This document shows, piece by piece, positions 12,798 to 24,024 of a DNA stretch of 28,139 nt (the first letter of the stretch is position 1; the number at the start of each line of letters is the position of its first letter). Both the position numbers and the translations under genes were made by a program. Source of the DNA: a virus; IMG/VR virus record IMGVR_UViG_3300022827_000030, positions 1-28,139 of that record; one strand, 5' to 3'. The notes beneath the pieces were generated by a model, which saw only the letters and a program-made list of their open reading frames with translations, was not told the origin of the DNA and did not search any database.

Positions 12798-14363
12798 TTA
12801 GAATTGTGGGATCTCTTCGATCAATACAGTTCTAGATAAATCTTCAATGAAAACATCGCAACGATCTTTCATCCATAATTCATATCCTGGGAATTTGTTA
12901 GCAGAGCTCATACCTTGAGATTTAGCAAATCCTAAGTGATGACGAGTTCCATCAATATAACCCCAAGTCATAGAAGGTGCTCCCTTCATACGTACTTCTC
13001 TAATGTTGTTGATCATAGATCCATCAGATTGTGGTGATACATCAAATACCATAAATACAGGAGTAGACTTTTTGTTTTGTCCAAACTCTAAGTTAGTTTG
13101 TGGTAAATCCAACTCTTTTAAGTGAACAAGTTCTACACGTCCAGTTTCACGAGTAACCATCGCATCAAATGCAAAGTTGTAAGTGATTGACTGTCCTTCA
13201 CCTTGCATATATCTGTTTCCAGAATCTGCCATGAATGTAAGTCCTGAGTTTAATGCATCATTCTTAAGAGCTTGTTGGAATACATCGAAACCAGCCTCAT
13301 TAGTATACATTTTAACTTTTCTATCTTTAACATCCACTCTTCTGTAGAATAAATCTCCAAATACTGAACGAATCAAGTTAGCTGAAAATTCTCCACGGTT
13401 GTATTGTACTAAGTTTCCGTTATTTCTCATTCTGTGGTATACACCAGCAGATGTTCTTTTTACTTCTTGTTTAGAACCACCACTCTTAACCGTACCTGGT
13501 TTAGCCCAGATCATACGTTTAACTTTTAATTCTAACATAGACTTACGCATCCAGAATTCTACAAACGGTTCCCATTTAATATCATTACGAGTTAATGGTA
13601 ATTGGTTACGTACTTGTGGAGCATATACTAAAATATCTAATGCTTTACCTGAAGCATCTCTCATCATTTTATCATCAGCCCATTCAGTAATTTTGTGCTC
13701 ATAACCATATGCAGAACCTAATGATTCAAACATAGTGATTTCCTCACCTAAACGAGGAAGACCTAATAAGTCTTGATCAAATTCTCCAATAGCAGCATCT
13801 ACTAATTCTAACTCAACACCTTGTGCTAAGAAGATAGTATTTACAAAATCGATAACTGGATTATCACTTACTAATGTAAATGAATATAAGAAACCAGCAT
13901 TCCACGGTTGTGGATCTTTGATTACGTAGAAACGTGGTCCATACTGACGAGTTCCTACAGATATAATTGCATTTTTAGAAAATTCATTCGTATCTAAGAT
14001 AAGTTGAAATTCTTGACCGTCAATACCTACTTTACCACTACCATCAATGATTGCTTGTGTAGATGAGGTTATATCAATAATTTTTGGAAATTTGTAAGGA
14101 ACTGCGATTTTCCATTTCCAAGCATCACTATTATTATCAATGTAATAAGGTGTGCTTTTATTGATCATGTCCATGAAATCATTGCTGTACAATGATGATT
14201 GAGTATAAAGACTTATGATTTTTTTATCATAGTCAGCAGGCTCAGTAGAGTGAAAAGACTCTAGGTGATTTGAATCAGTTAGCTTTCCTACAGCACGTTT
14301 GTCCATAGACGCTACTCGTGCATAAGTAAAACCAGTTAATCCTGGGATAGTTTGAATTGCCAT
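12798..14363 (-). CDS. Major capsid protein, crAss-type, HK97-fold (521 aa)
   Basis: Length and sequence pattern fit the crAss-like major capsid protein, which builds the T=9 head in phiCrAss001. The protein starts MAIQTIPGLTGFTYARVASM and has no signal peptide. Residues around 50-75 (SLYTQSSLYSNDFMDMINKS) lead into a beta-rich core. Long matched helices and strands such as MIWAKPGTVKSGG and YNFAFDAMVTRETGRVELV follow, and it ends VLIEEIPQF. Codon use is visibly more biased than in most neighbours (CGT for Arg, frequent GGT, AAC, ATC), as expected for the most abundant virion protein. It lies directly after the scaffold candidate (31-base gap) and before a GC-rich hairpin. The assignment also agrees with the order terminase, portal, scaffold, capsid. 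Confidence 0.88.
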   Translation of the reverse strand: MAIQTIPGLTGFTYARVASMDKRAVGKLTDSNHLESFHSTEPADYDKKIISLYTQSSLYSNDFMDMINKSTPYYIDNNSDAWKWKIAVPYKFPKIIDITSSTQAIIDGSGKVGIDGQEFQLILDTNEFSKNAIISVGTRQYGPRFYVIKDPQPWNAGFLYSFTLVSDNPVIDFVNTIFLAQGVELELVDAAIGEFDQDLLGLPRLGEEITMFESLGSAYGYEHKITEWADDKMMRDASGKALDILVYAPQVRNQLPLTRNDIKWEPFVEFWMRKSMLELKVKRMIWAKPGTVKSGGSKQEVKRTSAGVYHRMRNNGNLVQYNRGEFSANLIRSVFGDLFYRRVDVKDRKVKMYTNEAGFDVFQQALKNDALNSGLTFMADSGNRYMQGEGQSITYNFAFDAMVTRETGRVELVHLKELDLPQTNLEFGQNKKSTPVFMVFDVSPQSDGSMINNIREVRMKGAPSMTWGYIDGTRHHLGFAKSQGMSSANKFPGYELWMKDRCDVFIEDLSRTVLIEEIPQF

Positions 14364-15797: not shown

Positions 15798-18383
15798 TTA
15801 GTTTTTATTATTTCTACCTTTTGCATTCTCTTTTGCAACAGCTAAGTCATTTGCTTGATTATCTCTAGCTAATTTTATTTTTTCTCTTTCAACTTGTAGC
15901 TTTTGTTGAGCTATACTATTTTTAGAGTTTATATCAGACATTTTACTATTGTAATCTTTTTGAGCTTTTGATTGCTGCATAGCTATGTTTTCTAATTCTA
16001 ATATATCTGGTGAACCTGATCCATCTAAATCAACATCTGATGTACCTTCTTTAGATGCTGCGTTTATCATTGCAATCTCTATTTTATTAACACGATCTAA
16101 TTCATTTTGATAATTTTCATTAGCTAATCCTTCAGCAGTTATTCTTGCAGTTTCTTGCATTTGAGCTTGTGCTATTTTACCAGCTTGCTCTTGTTGTTGC
16201 TGTTGAAGTTGTACTTGTTGTTCTTGTTGTTTAAGTTGTTGGTCTCTTAAATCTTTGAAAGTTTTCTTCATCTCTCTCATTGACTTAGTACTATACAATT
16301 CTATTATATCATAAAGTGAGCCACCATTTTGAATAAGAGCTTGAGATAATCCTCTAAGTTCATTAAACATTTGTGTGTCTTCTGGTCTATTAGTTAAGAA
16401 TACTTTTAAATCACGGAATTTTAAATCTGATCCATTCACTTGTACAAATGCAGATTCGCCTTCACTTGTTATGTAAGATAGTGTAGATAGTGGTTTTGAA
16501 CTTTCTATATATAAAGCTGCATCAATTATAGATTGGTATAACTGACCCATCACATACTCATGAGCAACAAAAAGAGGCTCTGTCTGAGTATAACTTTGTT
16601 GCATGGCAGTATTTGTTGCTGTAGCTGTTTCTGATGCAGTTACAGACCCCATACGTTGTTTTGACATACCAATCAATTCCCAACATTCAGCTTTCATTTG
16701 TTGAGCTAATGTATAACGTGATTGTATCTCTTGAGTTCTTGTAAGATCTAAAGATGTAAATTGATTAAATGAACTAGGTCCTTTTAAATTTTCAGGACTA
16801 TCATCAATAAATACTACACCTCTTTCACGAGCTTCCATTTCCCATATATCTAAAGCGTCTGATGCATCCCCATCTTTAGGAATAGGTACATGTCTTAAAG
16901 ACATTAATTGTACTTTACCTACTTCTTTCTCAAGAAGTTTATATAATTGGTTCATACAAACATTATATATAACTTGAAAAGGTTTCATTAAATCTACAAG
17001 AGATTTAGCTTCTGTATTTTTTACTTCATAAGTAGTACCTATAATTGGACAATAGTTTAAAAGCTTATAAGGTTTAACATGATAGATATCTGGTCCAATT
17101 TTAGTTCCTTGATACCATTGATTAATCCATCCCCATTCAAGAGATTGCTGTGAAGGCATATCTCCTGATTTATATTTTTCATCTACTAATGTAGATTGTT
17201 CATTACCTAATTCATCTATGTATATTAACTTACCTATTTTTTTCTTAGATATCCAGTAACTTCTTACAACAACATATTTATATCCAAATGACGAAACATT
17301 ATTATTAAGTCCTAAAAAGTCTTTAAGTCCATCATTATTTTCTTTCATTTCACCTTCTATAATCATACGCTCCTGTAAAACTAAAGGATCATAAGTATCA
17401 TAGTTAATTGAATCAATACCTTCTGCAGCATTAGGATTTCCTAAGTTTGACTCACGAACATTAAGTAATCCAAAATCTTGAGTTGATGTTCTTAAATGAT
17501 CAATCTCTTCTTTTGTAAGATCTGGAAAAACTTCTATAATTTGAGATAGTTCCATAACCTCCACAGTACCAGCAGCATAGGCTCCCTGAGCTCTTCCTGA
17601 TGGATCAGAAATATATTTTCTATCTGGTGTTGTAAGGAACCAAGTATTTTTTGGGTTAGCCACTTCAACATTAAATCCTAATTTAGAGTTGTCTTCATAT
17701 ATATGATAGAATTCTCTAGCAGTTATAAGTAAATCTCTAAAAGCATCCTCACTTTTTTCTTTTAAATTGAAGTCCGCTTTTTGACAGGTTAATACATGAT
17801 TGGCCCACTTTTCAGCAACAGATGTATATGAATCAAGTTCATCTTTTACTTTATCCATTGTAAGTTGATCTAAGTCTTCTATAGAAATTTCTTCTCCAGA
17901 CATAGCAGCTTTTGTCATTATTTGTTGCTTCACTTGACTAATTACATAAGCTTGTAATGTATCTGTTTTAAATTGTAATTCTTGAGCTTGACTATCATCA
18001 TCAAATGCTTTAACTCTAAATGCATCAGGTCTTTTAGATATCTCACCAACTAATTCATTTACAGGAGTTGTTATAATAGAATACATCTTAACATAAGAAG
18101 GTAATGATAAATCTGATGTAAGCATGTCTGTAAAACTCTTAACATCTGGTTCATCTATTAAGAAGTCTTCTCTCCTTAATATACCTTTCATCAAGTCATA
18201 GTTTTTTACAAACGTATCCCTGTTTTTTATATACTCAGCATATGCTTTATTTGCAAAGTAATCCATTGTATTCTTAATCCAACCATCATCTTCCTTTTGT
18301 TTAATAGTTTTAAACTGATCAGGAAATATATTTAGGTAAGCGTTTTCAACGTTGTCTTCTTTTGTGTATCTAATAATTGCCAT
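15798..18383 (-). CDS. Portal protein (861 aa)
   Basis: Position directly after TerL, with start and stop overlapping as TAATG, and the large size both fit the portal, the dodecameric ring through which DNA enters the head. Residues 30-110 are helical with TMDYFANKAYAEYIKNRDTF, followed by the portal-like VNELVGEISKRPDAF. The middle has a stem-type segment (MKAECWELIGMSKQRMGSVT, ASETATATNTAMQQSYTQTE), which is a typical clip/stem region in crAss and P22-type portals. Residues 700-861 are a Gln-rich long helix that would form the inner barrel. Inside it, residues 783-793 read DVDLDGSGSPD, an EF-hand/dockerin-like calcium loop. The start MAIIRYTKEDN is the only good one near the overlap. Confidence 0.85.
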   Translation of the reverse strand: MAIIRYTKEDNVENAYLNIFPDQFKTIKQKEDDGWIKNTMDYFANKAYAEYIKNRDTFVKNYDLMKGILRREDFLIDEPDVKSFTDMLTSDLSLPSYVKMYSIITTPVNELVGEISKRPDAFRVKAFDDDSQAQELQFKTDTLQAYVISQVKQQIMTKAAMSGEEISIEDLDQLTMDKVKDELDSYTSVAEKWANHVLTCQKADFNLKEKSEDAFRDLLITAREFYHIYEDNSKLGFNVEVANPKNTWFLTTPDRKYISDPSGRAQGAYAAGTVEVMELSQIIEVFPDLTKEEIDHLRTSTQDFGLLNVRESNLGNPNAAEGIDSINYDTYDPLVLQERMIIEGEMKENNDGLKDFLGLNNNVSSFGYKYVVVRSYWISKKKIGKLIYIDELGNEQSTLVDEKYKSGDMPSQQSLEWGWINQWYQGTKIGPDIYHVKPYKLLNYCPIIGTTYEVKNTEAKSLVDLMKPFQVIYNVCMNQLYKLLEKEVGKVQLMSLRHVPIPKDGDASDALDIWEMEARERGVVFIDDSPENLKGPSSFNQFTSLDLTRTQEIQSRYTLAQQMKAECWELIGMSKQRMGSVTASETATATNTAMQQSYTQTEPLFVAHEYVMGQLYQSIIDAALYIESSKPLSTLSYITSEGESAFVQVNGSDLKFRDLKVFLTNRPEDTQMFNELRGLSQALIQNGGSLYDIIELYSTKSMREMKKTFKDLRDQQLKQQEQQVQLQQQQQEQAGKIAQAQMQETARITAEGLANENYQNELDRVNKIEIAMINAASKEGTSDVDLDGSGSPDILELENIAMQQSKAQKDYNSKMSDINSKNSIAQQKLQVEREKIKLARDNQANDLAVAKENAKGRNNKN

Positions 18384-20404
18384 TATGAAAAAAGTTTATT
18401 TTTTTTTCTATCAAACATTCCACGGGATTGTGTGAATAGTGTATTTTTTTTATTTTTGTTTTGCATAGCTGTTAATCTAACATCTTGCTTGTCTCCAACT
18501 CTACCCATTATTGGATCCAGTTTCATAGCTAACGCAATTGCTAACTCTGCTGCAATGATACGGTCAAAGTTACCTGTTTCATTGTATTGTATCATTTCTT
18601 CTAATAATAAAGGGTCTAGTATTTTTACCATACCTTTAGTTTGTTTGACTTCTTCACCATCTTCATTAGTTTCACTAATAATAATTTCTTCTGAATATTT
18701 TTTTAAACATCCATGTAAAAAAGTTCTAATCTTTTCTGAAGATCTATGTATTCCATAGTCACGCCTCACTGTAGTATTTGGTACTATTTCTTTTAACCAG
18801 TTAGGTTGTTTTTCTAAATACCTATCATCCCCTTTACTAATCATATAATCTATAAACGATATCTCATCATTTTCACATAATGTTCTAGCGTTATAGTATT
18901 TAATTAAATAACGAGTTTGTTCATCCCAAGTTTCTTTCTTATCAGGACGAGCACAATAGCTTGCAACAAACATATCTTGATATTTTTCACCAGATATAGC
19001 ATGCATTCTTTTATATATGTATATAGATCCTAATGAAGAACTATATGCTGATTTACCTTGTCTATAAGGGTCAACTCCTGCAACATATAAACCATATGGT
19101 GGGTTTTCTACAGGGAATTCATAAATAACTATAGGAGCATCTTTTAGATCTGAATTTTTAAGAGGGAAATTACTTATTGGCATTTTGTCTGTGAACTCAT
19201 GCTTTACACCATCACCATCATCATATAATATAACAGGTGTACCTGTTCTTTCTCTTTCAAGTAATCTATTTTTTTGACGTTTTGCTCCTTCTATATCAAA
19301 GATATTTGTATCTTCATTTAAAAATATATCATCTACCTCTTGAGGGTAATACATTTTTTCTTTTAGATATGCTAGTCTATCACCAGCTTTTTTTAATCTT
19401 TCTAAATTATCAGTAGTTACCTTATCAGCTAATTCCTGATTAGAAACCATCATTGAAACATTATGTAAATCAGAACATTTAGGTTGATCTAAAAAAGCAC
19501 CAAGAGATGATTCTTCTTTAGCTTCCATTCTATATTTATTAGAAATAAATAAACCATGAATACGTTGATTATCTTTTGCATTATTGTATGTTAGAAAATT
19601 AAAGTTTTCTACATCAAACATTAAAGATTTAGCATCATGAAACATTTTCATATCTCCCCCTGTTCCTGTTAGTATAGGACTACAACCCCAACCAAATGGT
19701 GTAGTGAATCCTGGAATAGCTGCTTGTAACCCTCTTAAAAAACTTCCTTTACCAATCTCATCAATAATTAATCTACGAGGTTTAGTTCCTGCAATTACTT
19801 CTTCATTAGCACCTCCATCTAAGTTTCTAATAAGTATTTGACTAAAAGGAATTCTTTCTCCACTTTTAGTTTTAACTCCTAACGTAACTTGCTTTGCCCA
19901 GTTATCTTCAACTCTTTGCCATTTCCAAGCTTTAGGAACAAAGTTTAACCCTTTATCAATCTTATCTGTAATAAGTTTAATATCGGGAGCATTTAATCCT
20001 GCAATAACATTTTGTGAATTCTCATCAAATGTAGCACCTTGAGCAATATAACTTGCTTCTATTACGGATTTAGCAAAACGTCTGATTCCAAGAATTACTA
20101 ATCCTTTTTTTTCTTTCTGTGCTCTATCAATCTCATTAGTTACAAGCCATTCATTATCTCTTAATAAAGGGTTTGCATACTTCTGGTTGATTCTACCGTA
20201 TTCATCAATTGTATCTACTTCTGTATTCCACACATTTAAGTGCCAATATAGAAAAGGGTTTATGTAAACTCCATTCATCATGCACCCATCCATACAGAGT
20301 TCTTTGTGAAAATTATAGAACTCTTTATATTGTTCTGAATCTTCATCTGGAATTCTTTTTTGATTGATGAGCCAATCGCTATAGTCTACATTATGTAATT
20401 TCAT
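18383..20404 (-). CDS. terL: Terminase large subunit, DNA-packaging ATPase/nuclease (673 aa)
   Basis: This motor pumps DNA into the procapsid and cuts it. Residues 106-113 (GIRRFAKS) are the Walker A loop in the terminase variant with basic residues before KS. Residues 211-216 (RLIIDE) are Walker B with D215 and catalytic E216, and TGTGG at 246-250 is the coupling motif. The nuclease part has D445 (AGVDPYRQGKSAYSS), the acidic group E511/D513 (LCENDEISF) and D614 (GNFDRIIAAELAIA), as expected for an RNase-H-fold nuclease. Length is normal for the crAss group. The gene overlaps the 111-aa gene upstream and the portal downstream, in both cases as TAATG, which points to coupled translation. Confidence 0.95.
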   Translation of the reverse strand: MKLHNVDYSDWLINQKRIPDEDSEQYKEFYNFHKELCMDGCMMNGVYINPFLYWHLNVWNTEVDTIDEYGRINQKYANPLLRDNEWLVTNEIDRAQKEKKGLVILGIRRFAKSVIEASYIAQGATFDENSQNVIAGLNAPDIKLITDKIDKGLNFVPKAWKWQRVEDNWAKQVTLGVKTKSGERIPFSQILIRNLDGGANEEVIAGTKPRRLIIDEIGKGSFLRGLQAAIPGFTTPFGWGCSPILTGTGGDMKMFHDAKSLMFDVENFNFLTYNNAKDNQRIHGLFISNKYRMEAKEESSLGAFLDQPKCSDLHNVSMMVSNQELADKVTTDNLERLKKAGDRLAYLKEKMYYPQEVDDIFLNEDTNIFDIEGAKRQKNRLLERERTGTPVILYDDGDGVKHEFTDKMPISNFPLKNSDLKDAPIVIYEFPVENPPYGLYVAGVDPYRQGKSAYSSSLGSIYIYKRMHAISGEKYQDMFVASYCARPDKKETWDEQTRYLIKYYNARTLCENDEISFIDYMISKGDDRYLEKQPNWLKEIVPNTTVRRDYGIHRSSEKIRTFLHGCLKKYSEEIIISETNEDGEEVKQTKGMVKILDPLLLEEMIQYNETGNFDRIIAAELAIALAMKLDPIMGRVGDKQDVRLTAMQNKNKKNTLFTQSRGMFDRKKNKLFS

Positions 20405-22655: not shown

Positions 22656-23045
22656 ATGGCAGTAGAATTTATTACTTACGAACAGACAGAGAGAACTGAA
22701 TTAGGAACAGTAGCTGAGGTTACAGGAACAGGGGGAAAGATTGCATTAATACCAACAAACTTTAGCAACACTGACAAGCGTGTTGTTCTTATCCTTAAGA
22801 AACTTGACGGAACATCCGCACAAGTAGTTTGTTCATCGAAGGTATCACAAGGCTTACGCTCTAAGGAGATTAGCCTTAGTATGATACAAGGGTTTAACAT
22901 CTGTGAAAACATCACTCCTGATGGAGAGATGATTAACATTGTTACAATGCCAAGTGGTGGTGGACTAATTGAGTTCGCTGTTAACGATAAAGCAGTAGCT
23001 TATCAAGCACCTACTTTTGACCCTGCTGAATTAGTAGCATTTTAA
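22656..23045 (+). CDS. Unknown, probably abundant beta-rich protein, first rightward gene (129 aa)
   Basis: The gene stands alone: foldable leader before it, perfect terminator 8 bases after its stop. It has no signal peptide, membrane segment or Cys motif. The pattern is beta-rich with two blocks, ELGTVAEVTGTGGKIALIPT and KRVVLILKKLDGTSAQVVCS, a helix (RSKEISLSMIQGF) and an acidic-hydrophobic end (APTFDPAELVAF). G+C and codon use (CGT, CTT, AAC, ATC) are higher and more biased than in other early genes, like the capsid gene. I infer a highly expressed early protein, perhaps binding single-stranded DNA or host RNA polymerase; neither is shown. The A-rich start context AAAAACATAAAAAG is typical of Bacteroidota. 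Confidence 0.7.
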   Translation: MAVEFITYEQTERTELGTVAEVTGTGGKIALIPTNFSNTDKRVVLILKKLDGTSAQVVCSSKVSQGLRSKEISLSMIQGFNICENITPDGEMINIVTMPSGGGLIEFAVNDKAVAYQAPTFDPAELVAF

Positions 23046-23052
23046 TATGATT

Positions 23053-23074
23053 GGGGAGTTAACACTCCCCTTTT
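23053..23074 (+). terminator. Perfect intrinsic terminator after the first rightward gene
   Basis: GGGGAGT (23053-23059), loop TAAC, ACTCCCC (23064-23070), then TTTT (23071-23074). Seven uninterrupted pairs with a four-base loop, 8 bases after the stop codon. It should end most transcripts from the 22656 gene and make that gene monocistronic. Confidence 0.88.
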
Positions 23075-23187
23075 ATATATAGGGTGGGATTGATAAAATA
23101 GGGTTGGGCTTATAAACGCTGTGCTTATAACCTTTTGCAGGTGTATATAGTAAGGAGAACAGTTGTTTTTTTGTAAGAACAGTGTGT

Positions 23188-23236
23188 GTTATAAGATGGA
23201 AGTATTCCACTAAAGGGTGTTTCACCTTCTTATAAC
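23188..23236 (+). repeat. Inverted repeat with inner hairpin (12-bp stem, one mismatch)
   Basis: GTTATAAGATGG (23188-23199) pairs with CCTTCTTATAAC (23225-23236) at 11 of 12 positions. The loop can form CACT-AAAG-GGTG. GTTATAAG can instead pair with CTTATAAC at 23124-23131, so alternative folds exist. No T run follows directly. It may be an operator or an RNA switch. Confidence 0.45.
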
Positions 23237-23307
23237 TATAGGAAGAATTGCTCTTCTTTAATAAATATATATAGCAATAACTATTTCTCTCTCCCATATT
23301 CTTTAAC

Positions 23308-23335
23308 TTTGTGCATACGTGTATTATTATCTTTG
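23308..23335 (+). promoter_or_regulatory. Bacteroidota-type promoter candidate for the early cluster
   Basis: TTTG (23308-23311) and TATCTTTG (23328-23335) are separated by 16 bases, close to the usual TTTG-N(17-23)-TAnnTTTG arrangement. The first box is itself part of TAACTTTG, a second match to the -7 consensus. The start site would be near 23342, about 50 bases before the next ATG. Confidence 0.45.
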
Positions 23336-23394
23336 GAGATATATGGGGAGTTTAAGAATTACATTAATAAGACATATAACTAAAACATAATATC

Positions 23395-23553
23395 ATGTAC
23401 TTTCATAAAAAGAAATACCTTATTAGAATAGATCAAATTGATGGACCATATTGGGCACAAACTGAATCTCGTATTGGAGGGATTCAACGCTTTTACAAAA
23501 GACATAGTAAAAGTAGAAATATTAAAATAACATGTCTGAAAGTATTACACTAA
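23395..23553 (+). CDS. Small basic protein (52 aa)
   Basis: ATG at 23395 opens MYFHKKKYLIRIDQIDGPYW, then AQTESRIGGIQRFYKRHSKS and a short basic tail, stopping at TAA. It is the first frame after the promoter candidate at 23308-23335, and codon use looks normal for the early genes. Basic and aromatic composition could suit nucleic-acid binding. I recognise no family. Confidence 0.5.
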   Translation: MYFHKKKYLIRIDQIDGPYWAQTESRIGGIQRFYKRHSKSRNIKITCLKVLH

Positions 23554-23606
23554 CAAGAGAGGATAATCGCCTTGAGTTAGTATTAATCATTAAGAGGTTT
23601 ATATAG
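23532..23606 (+). CDS. Possible tiny ORF (24 aa) overlapping the 52-aa gene
   Basis: ATG at 23532 gives MSESITLTREDNRLELVLII and ends KRFI at TAG. It overlaps the preceding frame by 22 bases. It is close to chance length; the only support is its position and its non-repetitive sequence. Its end overlaps the pseudoknot candidate. Confidence 0.2.
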   Translation: MSESITLTREDNRLELVLIIKRFI

Positions 23607-23636
23607 TTTTCAACTCCTCTATAAACATGTGTTGAA
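23597..23636 (+). ncRNA. H-type pseudoknot candidate
   Basis: Stem 1 is GTTTATA (23597-23603) with TATAAAC (23620-23626). Stem 2 is TTCAAC (23609-23614), inside the loop of stem 1, with GTTGAA (23631-23636). Linker lengths of 5, 5 and 4 bases are sterically possible. It lies 11 bases before the structured RNA below. AT-rich stems make chance formation possible. Confidence 0.3.
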
Positions 23637-23646
23637 CTTATTTAGA

Positions 23647-23831
23647 TAGTATGAATTGAGAACTTATTAACAGAACTATATCTTGGACTCCTACGAGAGG
23701 ACACTTAGAATACACAATCAACTATAGATAAGGTTGTGTATGCTCATAACCGTTAAAACGAGATATAGGGAAATAGATACAACCTGACAAATCAGGTGTT
23801 AAGTATTTTATTAAAAGTTCAATTCATACTA
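23647..23831 (+). ncRNA. Structured RNA candidate, multi-helix, unknown class (about 185 nt)
   Basis: P1: TAGTATGAATTGA (23647-23659) with TCAATTCATACTA (23819-23831), 13 bp, extended past a 2-base bulge by ACTT/AAGT. P2: CTATATCTTG (23676-23685) with CGAGATATAG (23759-23768), 10 bp. P3: TCCT/AGGA (23689-23701). P4: ATACACAATC (23710-23719) with GGTTGTGTAT (23732-23741), 10 bp. P5: ACCTGA/TCAGGT (23782-23797) with loop CAAA and an outer ATAC/GTAT. The helices nest without conflict. The single non-Watson-Crick pair in each of P2 and P4 is U-G on the plus strand and would be A-C on the minus strand, so the RNA should be read rightward. I recognise neither a group I intron core nor a known ribozyme or riboswitch. 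Confidence 0.65.
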
Positions 23832-23877
23832 ATCTTTAGTAATAAATACATAATCAATATTAATAAATACATATATC

Positions 23878-24024
23878 ATGAAGAAAATTAAACTTACACC
23901 AACAGAATTCTATGGGTTTAGAAAAATAGCTTTTGCATTAGGAATAGCATTCATGTGTTCTATATCTAAAGGAACATATACAGTGAAAGCAGATTTAATT
24001 GAATTAGAGGAAATAGGATATTAG
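23878..24024 (+). CDS. Small protein with hydrophobic centre (48 aa)
   Basis: The frame reads MKKIKLTPTEFYGFRKIAFA, LGIAFMCSISKGTYTVKADL and IELEEIGY, stop TAG. A short hydrophobic stretch (FALGIAFMCSI) might touch a membrane but is too short for a sure transmembrane helix. It starts 46 bases after the structured RNA, in an A-rich leader. I recognise no family. Confidence 0.45.
   Translation: MKKIKLTPTEFYGFRKIAFALGIAFMCSISKGTYTVKADLIELEEIGY

Follow-up and report, generated by a model that had tools for sequence, protein, structure and literature searches.

A structured RNA between early genes of a crAss-like phage and its possible role as an exchangeable cassette

Between small early genes of an environmental crAss-like phage, 185 noncoding nucleotides form a real RNA fold that would be, in the reading favored here at a probability of roughly 45%, a sense-strand, exchangeable cassette of the early transcript that probably acts as an autonomous folded RNA, perhaps as a decoy or regulator of a host factor. 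The fold lies in the right arm of the stretch of DNA that was analyzed (the window, 28,139 bases), a fragment of a crAss-like phage in which small plus-strand genes, taken as early genes, occupy the right arm from 22656. A twin IMG/VR record (107,936 bases) matches the right arm without a difference and contains one copy of the RNA; the next-closest terminases found in IMG/VR are 86-87% identical to that of the window, and among isolates, Leptolyngbya phage Lbo-JY46 (40%) and the Cellulophaga phages phi17:2 and phi4:1 (32%) come nearest. The early-gene strand of the twin record (G001, L165-L169) contains a further element with a closed stem (11 bp) at 81246-81344, and this element encloses a terminator-like hairpin. 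Upstream of its terminase, Lbo-JY46 has a large tRNA cluster (L164 8681-13221), at a position taken up by small genes and RNA cassettes in the group to which the window belongs. The genes and signals of the window that matter here are the following.

12798-14363, minus strand: major head protein
15798-18383, minus strand: portal
18383-20404, minus strand: large terminase
23053-23070, plus strand: terminator-like hairpin after the 129-residue gene (upstream of the RNA)
23261-23285, plus strand: conserved element AAATATATATAGC (also given as AAATATATATAGCAATAA), candidate early promoter or transcript start
23878-24024, plus strand: 48-residue gene, conserved in relatives and used as the slot marker, with its start 46 bases past the end of the RNA

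The conserved element occurs in the post-terminator regions of 26 of 47 relatives, compared with 1.75 in shuffles, and often stands immediately 5' of a start codon (TATATAGCATTATG); it may act as a promoter. Because the terminator hairpin is followed by this element, the RNA is probably part of a transcript that starts near 23261-23285. The region past the terminator of the 129-residue gene also has a direct repeat (ATAGGGTGGG / ATAGGGTTGGG) at 23079-23116, and the motif GGGTGGG is found in the post-terminator regions of 38 of 47 relatives, compared with 0.9 in shuffles.

The predicted structure consists of a long basal helix (P1) that encloses four inner helices, all on the plus strand.

23647-23831: structured RNA unit, whole fold, from the shuffle test and local-fold scan
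23647-23659 with 23819-23831: P1, 13 Watson-Crick pairs
23662-23665 with 23815-23818: continuation of P1, four more pairs past a 2-nt GA bulge at 23660-23661
23647-23665 (5') and 23815-23831 (3'): arms of P1 overall, 17 pairs in total
23676-23685 with 23759-23768: P2, 10 pairs including one U-G
23689-23701 (23689-23692 with 23698-23701): P3 hairpin, present in the minimum free energy structure and missing from the centroid
23707-23744 (23710-23719 with 23732-23741): P4 hairpin, 10 pairs including one U-G, plus two more
23770-23809: P5 hairpin, in three segments
23627-23851: continuation of the basal helix outside P1, with interruptions (z = -5.4); P1 itself is more certain

The minimum free energy of the plus strand is -49.6 kcal/mol, compared with -28.4 +/- 3.4 for shuffled sequences (z = -6.3, with none of 200 shuffles as good), and a local-fold scan chose 23647-23832 as a unit of its own (z = -6.1). 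The fold of the minus strand is clearly weaker (-43.3, z = -3.7), and the segment also folds as single-stranded DNA (z = -5.8). These results agree with the preliminary description of this DNA, which had placed five helices where they were found, with 13, 10 and 10 pairs in P1, P2 and P4, had judged such stems unlikely to arise by chance, had seen no convincing gene (no overlapping ORF exceeds 31 amino acids) and had tentatively assigned the RNA to the rightward strand. Its observation that the non-Watson-Crick pairs are G-U on the plus strand holds, but they number three rather than two, the third being G-U 23770-23809; since a prediction on the plus strand allows only G-U wobbles, this pattern alone is weak evidence of strand.

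The preliminary description had also recognized no known ribozyme, riboswitch or tRNA and had proposed a comparison with Rfam. No match to Rfam 15 was found in the window at the gathering threshold, a loose Rfam search of 23000-23900 gave only weak, chance-level matches over the RNA, and ARAGORN found no tRNA or tmRNA gene in the window; the pieces of the twin record have no tRNA either. GOLLD and ROOL gave no match, assuming that the scanned set of Rfam 15 models includes the two. Together with the strand asymmetry, these results support the description of an undescribed structured RNA, read rightward, between early genes. In two crAss-like relatives, ARAGORN found tmRNA genes (L057 1840-2256 and L072 1075-1464).

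The lack of a homologous region in relatives had been named beforehand as a refutation of a structured RNA, and for the sequence of this RNA that lack is literally what was found: blastn of 82 loci (about 80 relatives) matched only the twin record, a search of annotated phages and plasmids gave no homologue, a single-sequence covariance model (R1) found none over 1.33 Mb and 50 whole records, and two 18-mers of the RNA occur across IMG/VR only in the twin record. The likely cause is that the slot in which the RNA stands is hypervariable, with other RNA families or none in relatives. An RNA with no homologue might be a functionless chance fold of AT-rich intergenic DNA, which is very improbable for a structure whose z-score of -6.3 was equaled in 0 of 200 shuffles and whose slot is occupied in relatives by covarying RNA families.

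Upstream of the 48-residue gene, which is found in a dozen or more relatives, the occupants of this slot are family A in L003 and L007, families D and F in L004, families A, D and F in L009, families F and B in L020, and family F in L017 and L021; in L028, L042, L047, L053 and L076 the slot is empty, with at most 18 bases between genes. At a second slot, L004 and L005 are approximately 98% identical in the flank and then have different closed-stem RNAs, the closing stems of which are TACTAGTCAA/TTGACTAGTA and ATGCTTGCAT/ATGCAAGCAT, respectively; further RNAs are found there in L007, L015 and L020, and none in L009, L017, L027 and L028. Comparison by eye of filled with empty slots showed no target duplication. 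A repeated hairpin element at gene starts, AGGGAGCTCTAAAGCTGAAGAGCATTGTACTA, precedes many small early ORFs (L126 1371, L096 2763 and others, in reverse-oriented loci), and RNA cassettes sit within its loop in L004, L005, L007 and L020.

Three of the families in relatives (A, D and E) have a nearly invariant core and a closing stem that is replaced from member to member, and none has an Rfam match. Families B and F were recognized by sequence alone. Family D, which occurs in 37 IMG/VR contigs (a lower bound on its range, as for the other families, because they were found by patterns from relatives of this phage), has two-sided changes in 8 of 22 pairs and a covariation score of 0.227, compared with 0.097 +/- 0.017 for shuffled and at most 0.048 for slid alignments; its covariance model (R2) matches 32 places, all at E <= 5e-11, with no further match up to E = 1. 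The covariation score of family A is 0.118 versus 0.048, and family E keeps all eight closing pairs with three two-sided changes, in three sequences only. The wobbles of these three families are 11 G-U versus 1 A-C on the early-gene strand; across all gap stems, the numbers (66 G-U versus 55 A-C) are uninformative. In a survey of noncoding gaps in relatives and in contigs matched by motif (284 distinct gaps, 83.8 kb), with dinucleotide shuffles as the control, stems of at least 11 bp that close 50-230 nt number 64, compared with 20.5 +/- 4.1 in shuffles, and stems of at least 12 bp number 25, compared with 6.0 +/- 2.6, an excess that is overstated, as the phages that supplied the gaps are related to one another. 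Clustering of the stems that reach 10 bp and contain two or more G or C letters gave 63 groups, some of which may not be real.

A number of local folds that scored highly in relatives were set aside because they lie within coding sequence. Membership of the window's RNA in family D was rejected, as the window was searched with model R2 and is not among its 32 matches. A 9-mer common to the RNA and family A (CGTTAAAAC) was judged to be chance; a 13-base search that allowed one mismatch matched the window only. Family D is also present on a 114,697-base contig in a GTDB bin labelled Pseudomonadales (L173, WLWP01000004.1), pieces of which are approximately 91-97% identical to the crAss-like contigs L141, L145 and L160; the bin has probably taken in a contig of phage origin, and because of these matches the occurrence was not counted as host DNA.

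We infer that the RNA belongs to the same class of cassettes, in which it is placed, as a single sequence, by its position (a gap between early genes, in a slot used by families A, D, F and B in relatives) and by its architecture (a closing stem around an internal fold). The gaps that contain families D, A and F are not unusually stable (z of +0.2 to -1.7), so the RNA, which is far stabler, may be a different kind of thing. If it is a cassette, the 185-nt unit would be made as part of an early rightward transcript and would be one of many interchangeable RNAs in the gaps between small early genes of this crAss-like group. P1 would insulate the fold from the surrounding mRNA, allowing the inner domains (P2-P4 and P5) to act alone, either within the transcript or after a possible excision at the long basal helix. 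A fixed core enclosed by a stem of free sequence meets the needs of an autonomously folding module. The cassettes would be accessory and exchanged between phages at fixed slots, and our best guess is that the folded core may bind a host factor, such as a nuclease, a defense sensor or an RNA-binding protein, and so serve as a decoy or regulator that changes rapidly. An accessory function of this rapidly changing kind is in keeping with the exchange of the cassettes, their presence in some phages and absence from others, their early position and their lack of a tie to the gene downstream.

The main rival, though a doubtful one, makes the same long basal helix part of a module that acts in cis on the processing or stability of the polycistronic early mRNA: an enzyme like RNase III would cut the helix, or the helix would protect the message that follows it, in the manner of the T7 sites, and the inner fold would be mostly compact filler. 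The location of the RNA between early genes of its own strand, the 17 pairs of P1 with their interrupted outward extension, and the presence of a closing stem in all cassettes, although its sequence is free, are as expected of such a module; the nearly invariant cores of families A and D would not be needed by a pure processing site, and the P1 of families D, A and E, at approximately 6-11 pairs, is short for RNase III. The end of the unit 46 bases before the start codon of the 48-residue gene might instead indicate a cis-regulatory leader of that gene, either a switch or a control of translation. This is unlikely, as the gene is accompanied in relatives by A, D, F or B cassettes or by none, and cassettes of families A and D stand ahead of many ORFs that are unrelated to one another; the ORFs downstream of these cassettes, with that of the window included, form 19 clusters.

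Flanking of a noncoding interior by terminal inverted repeats of 13-24 nt, folding as single-stranded DNA and the appearance and disappearance of cassettes between phages could each be properties of a DNA element, either a small mobile element with inverted repeats or a structured site of replication or packaging. Such an element is quite unlikely: the covarying families keep the interior and replace the terminal repeats, the opposite of a transposon family, the RNA is a single copy in the twin record, filled and empty slots differ by no duplication visible by eye, and the wobbles are strand-specific. Of the roles that the preliminary description had considered, a sponge, a decoy or a processing element might each apply; a structured origin is less likely, since the other RNAs that occupy the slot are found ahead of many different genes and their wobbles are G-U on one strand. 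A classification of the RNA as MITE-like was rejected, as conserved terminal inverted repeats in several copies were not found.

Returning to the cassette reading, a tentative extension of it is that the early locus is hypervariable in RNA modules instead of proteins, a set of sockets that exchange non-homologous modules with fixed cores and replaceable stems, the window's RNA included, as the RNA counterpart of anti-defense gene islands. The crAss-like phages are abundant. A slot that swaps RNAs, together with three or more covarying families that lack an Rfam match (A, D and E), would give phage accessory genomes a further layer, one that gene-centered annotation misses. The families are testable candidates for RNA-based interaction with host defenses or RNA turnover. 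In the literature searched, outside which most subscription journals lie, no description of small structured RNAs in crAss-like phages was found, nor any described equivalent of the RNA or of the cassettes.

Several known systems are nonetheless comparable. The early genes of phage T7 have RNase III sites between them, which are simple long hairpins; these are likewise structured, intergenic and sense-read, whereas the folds predicted here are multibranched and other families have invariant cores. The stable RNAs C and D of phage T4, made with the T4 tRNA cluster, are also small structured phage RNAs of unknown function, but no tRNA was found near the window's RNA. GOLLD and ROOL are structured, noncoding and phage-borne with unknown function, as is this RNA, but have several hundred nucleotides and are often near tRNA genes, in contrast to 185 nt with no tRNA and no Rfam match; an ICP1 transcript (~800) has been called comparable in size to them (PMC7567579, PMC12286853). 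In staphylococcal phages, cabRNA is a structured RNA that is transcribed from the terminase genes and recognized by a host defense sensor (PMC10686824), which shows that folded phage RNA can meet host immunity, although the window's RNA does not come from terminase genes. The PLE IIR transcript and MITE-like noncoding RNAs (PMC7567579) are likewise noncoding and flanked by terminal inverted repeats, within an element related to phages; in contrast to them, families A, D and E replace the repeats and keep the core, and each slot holds unrelated RNAs.
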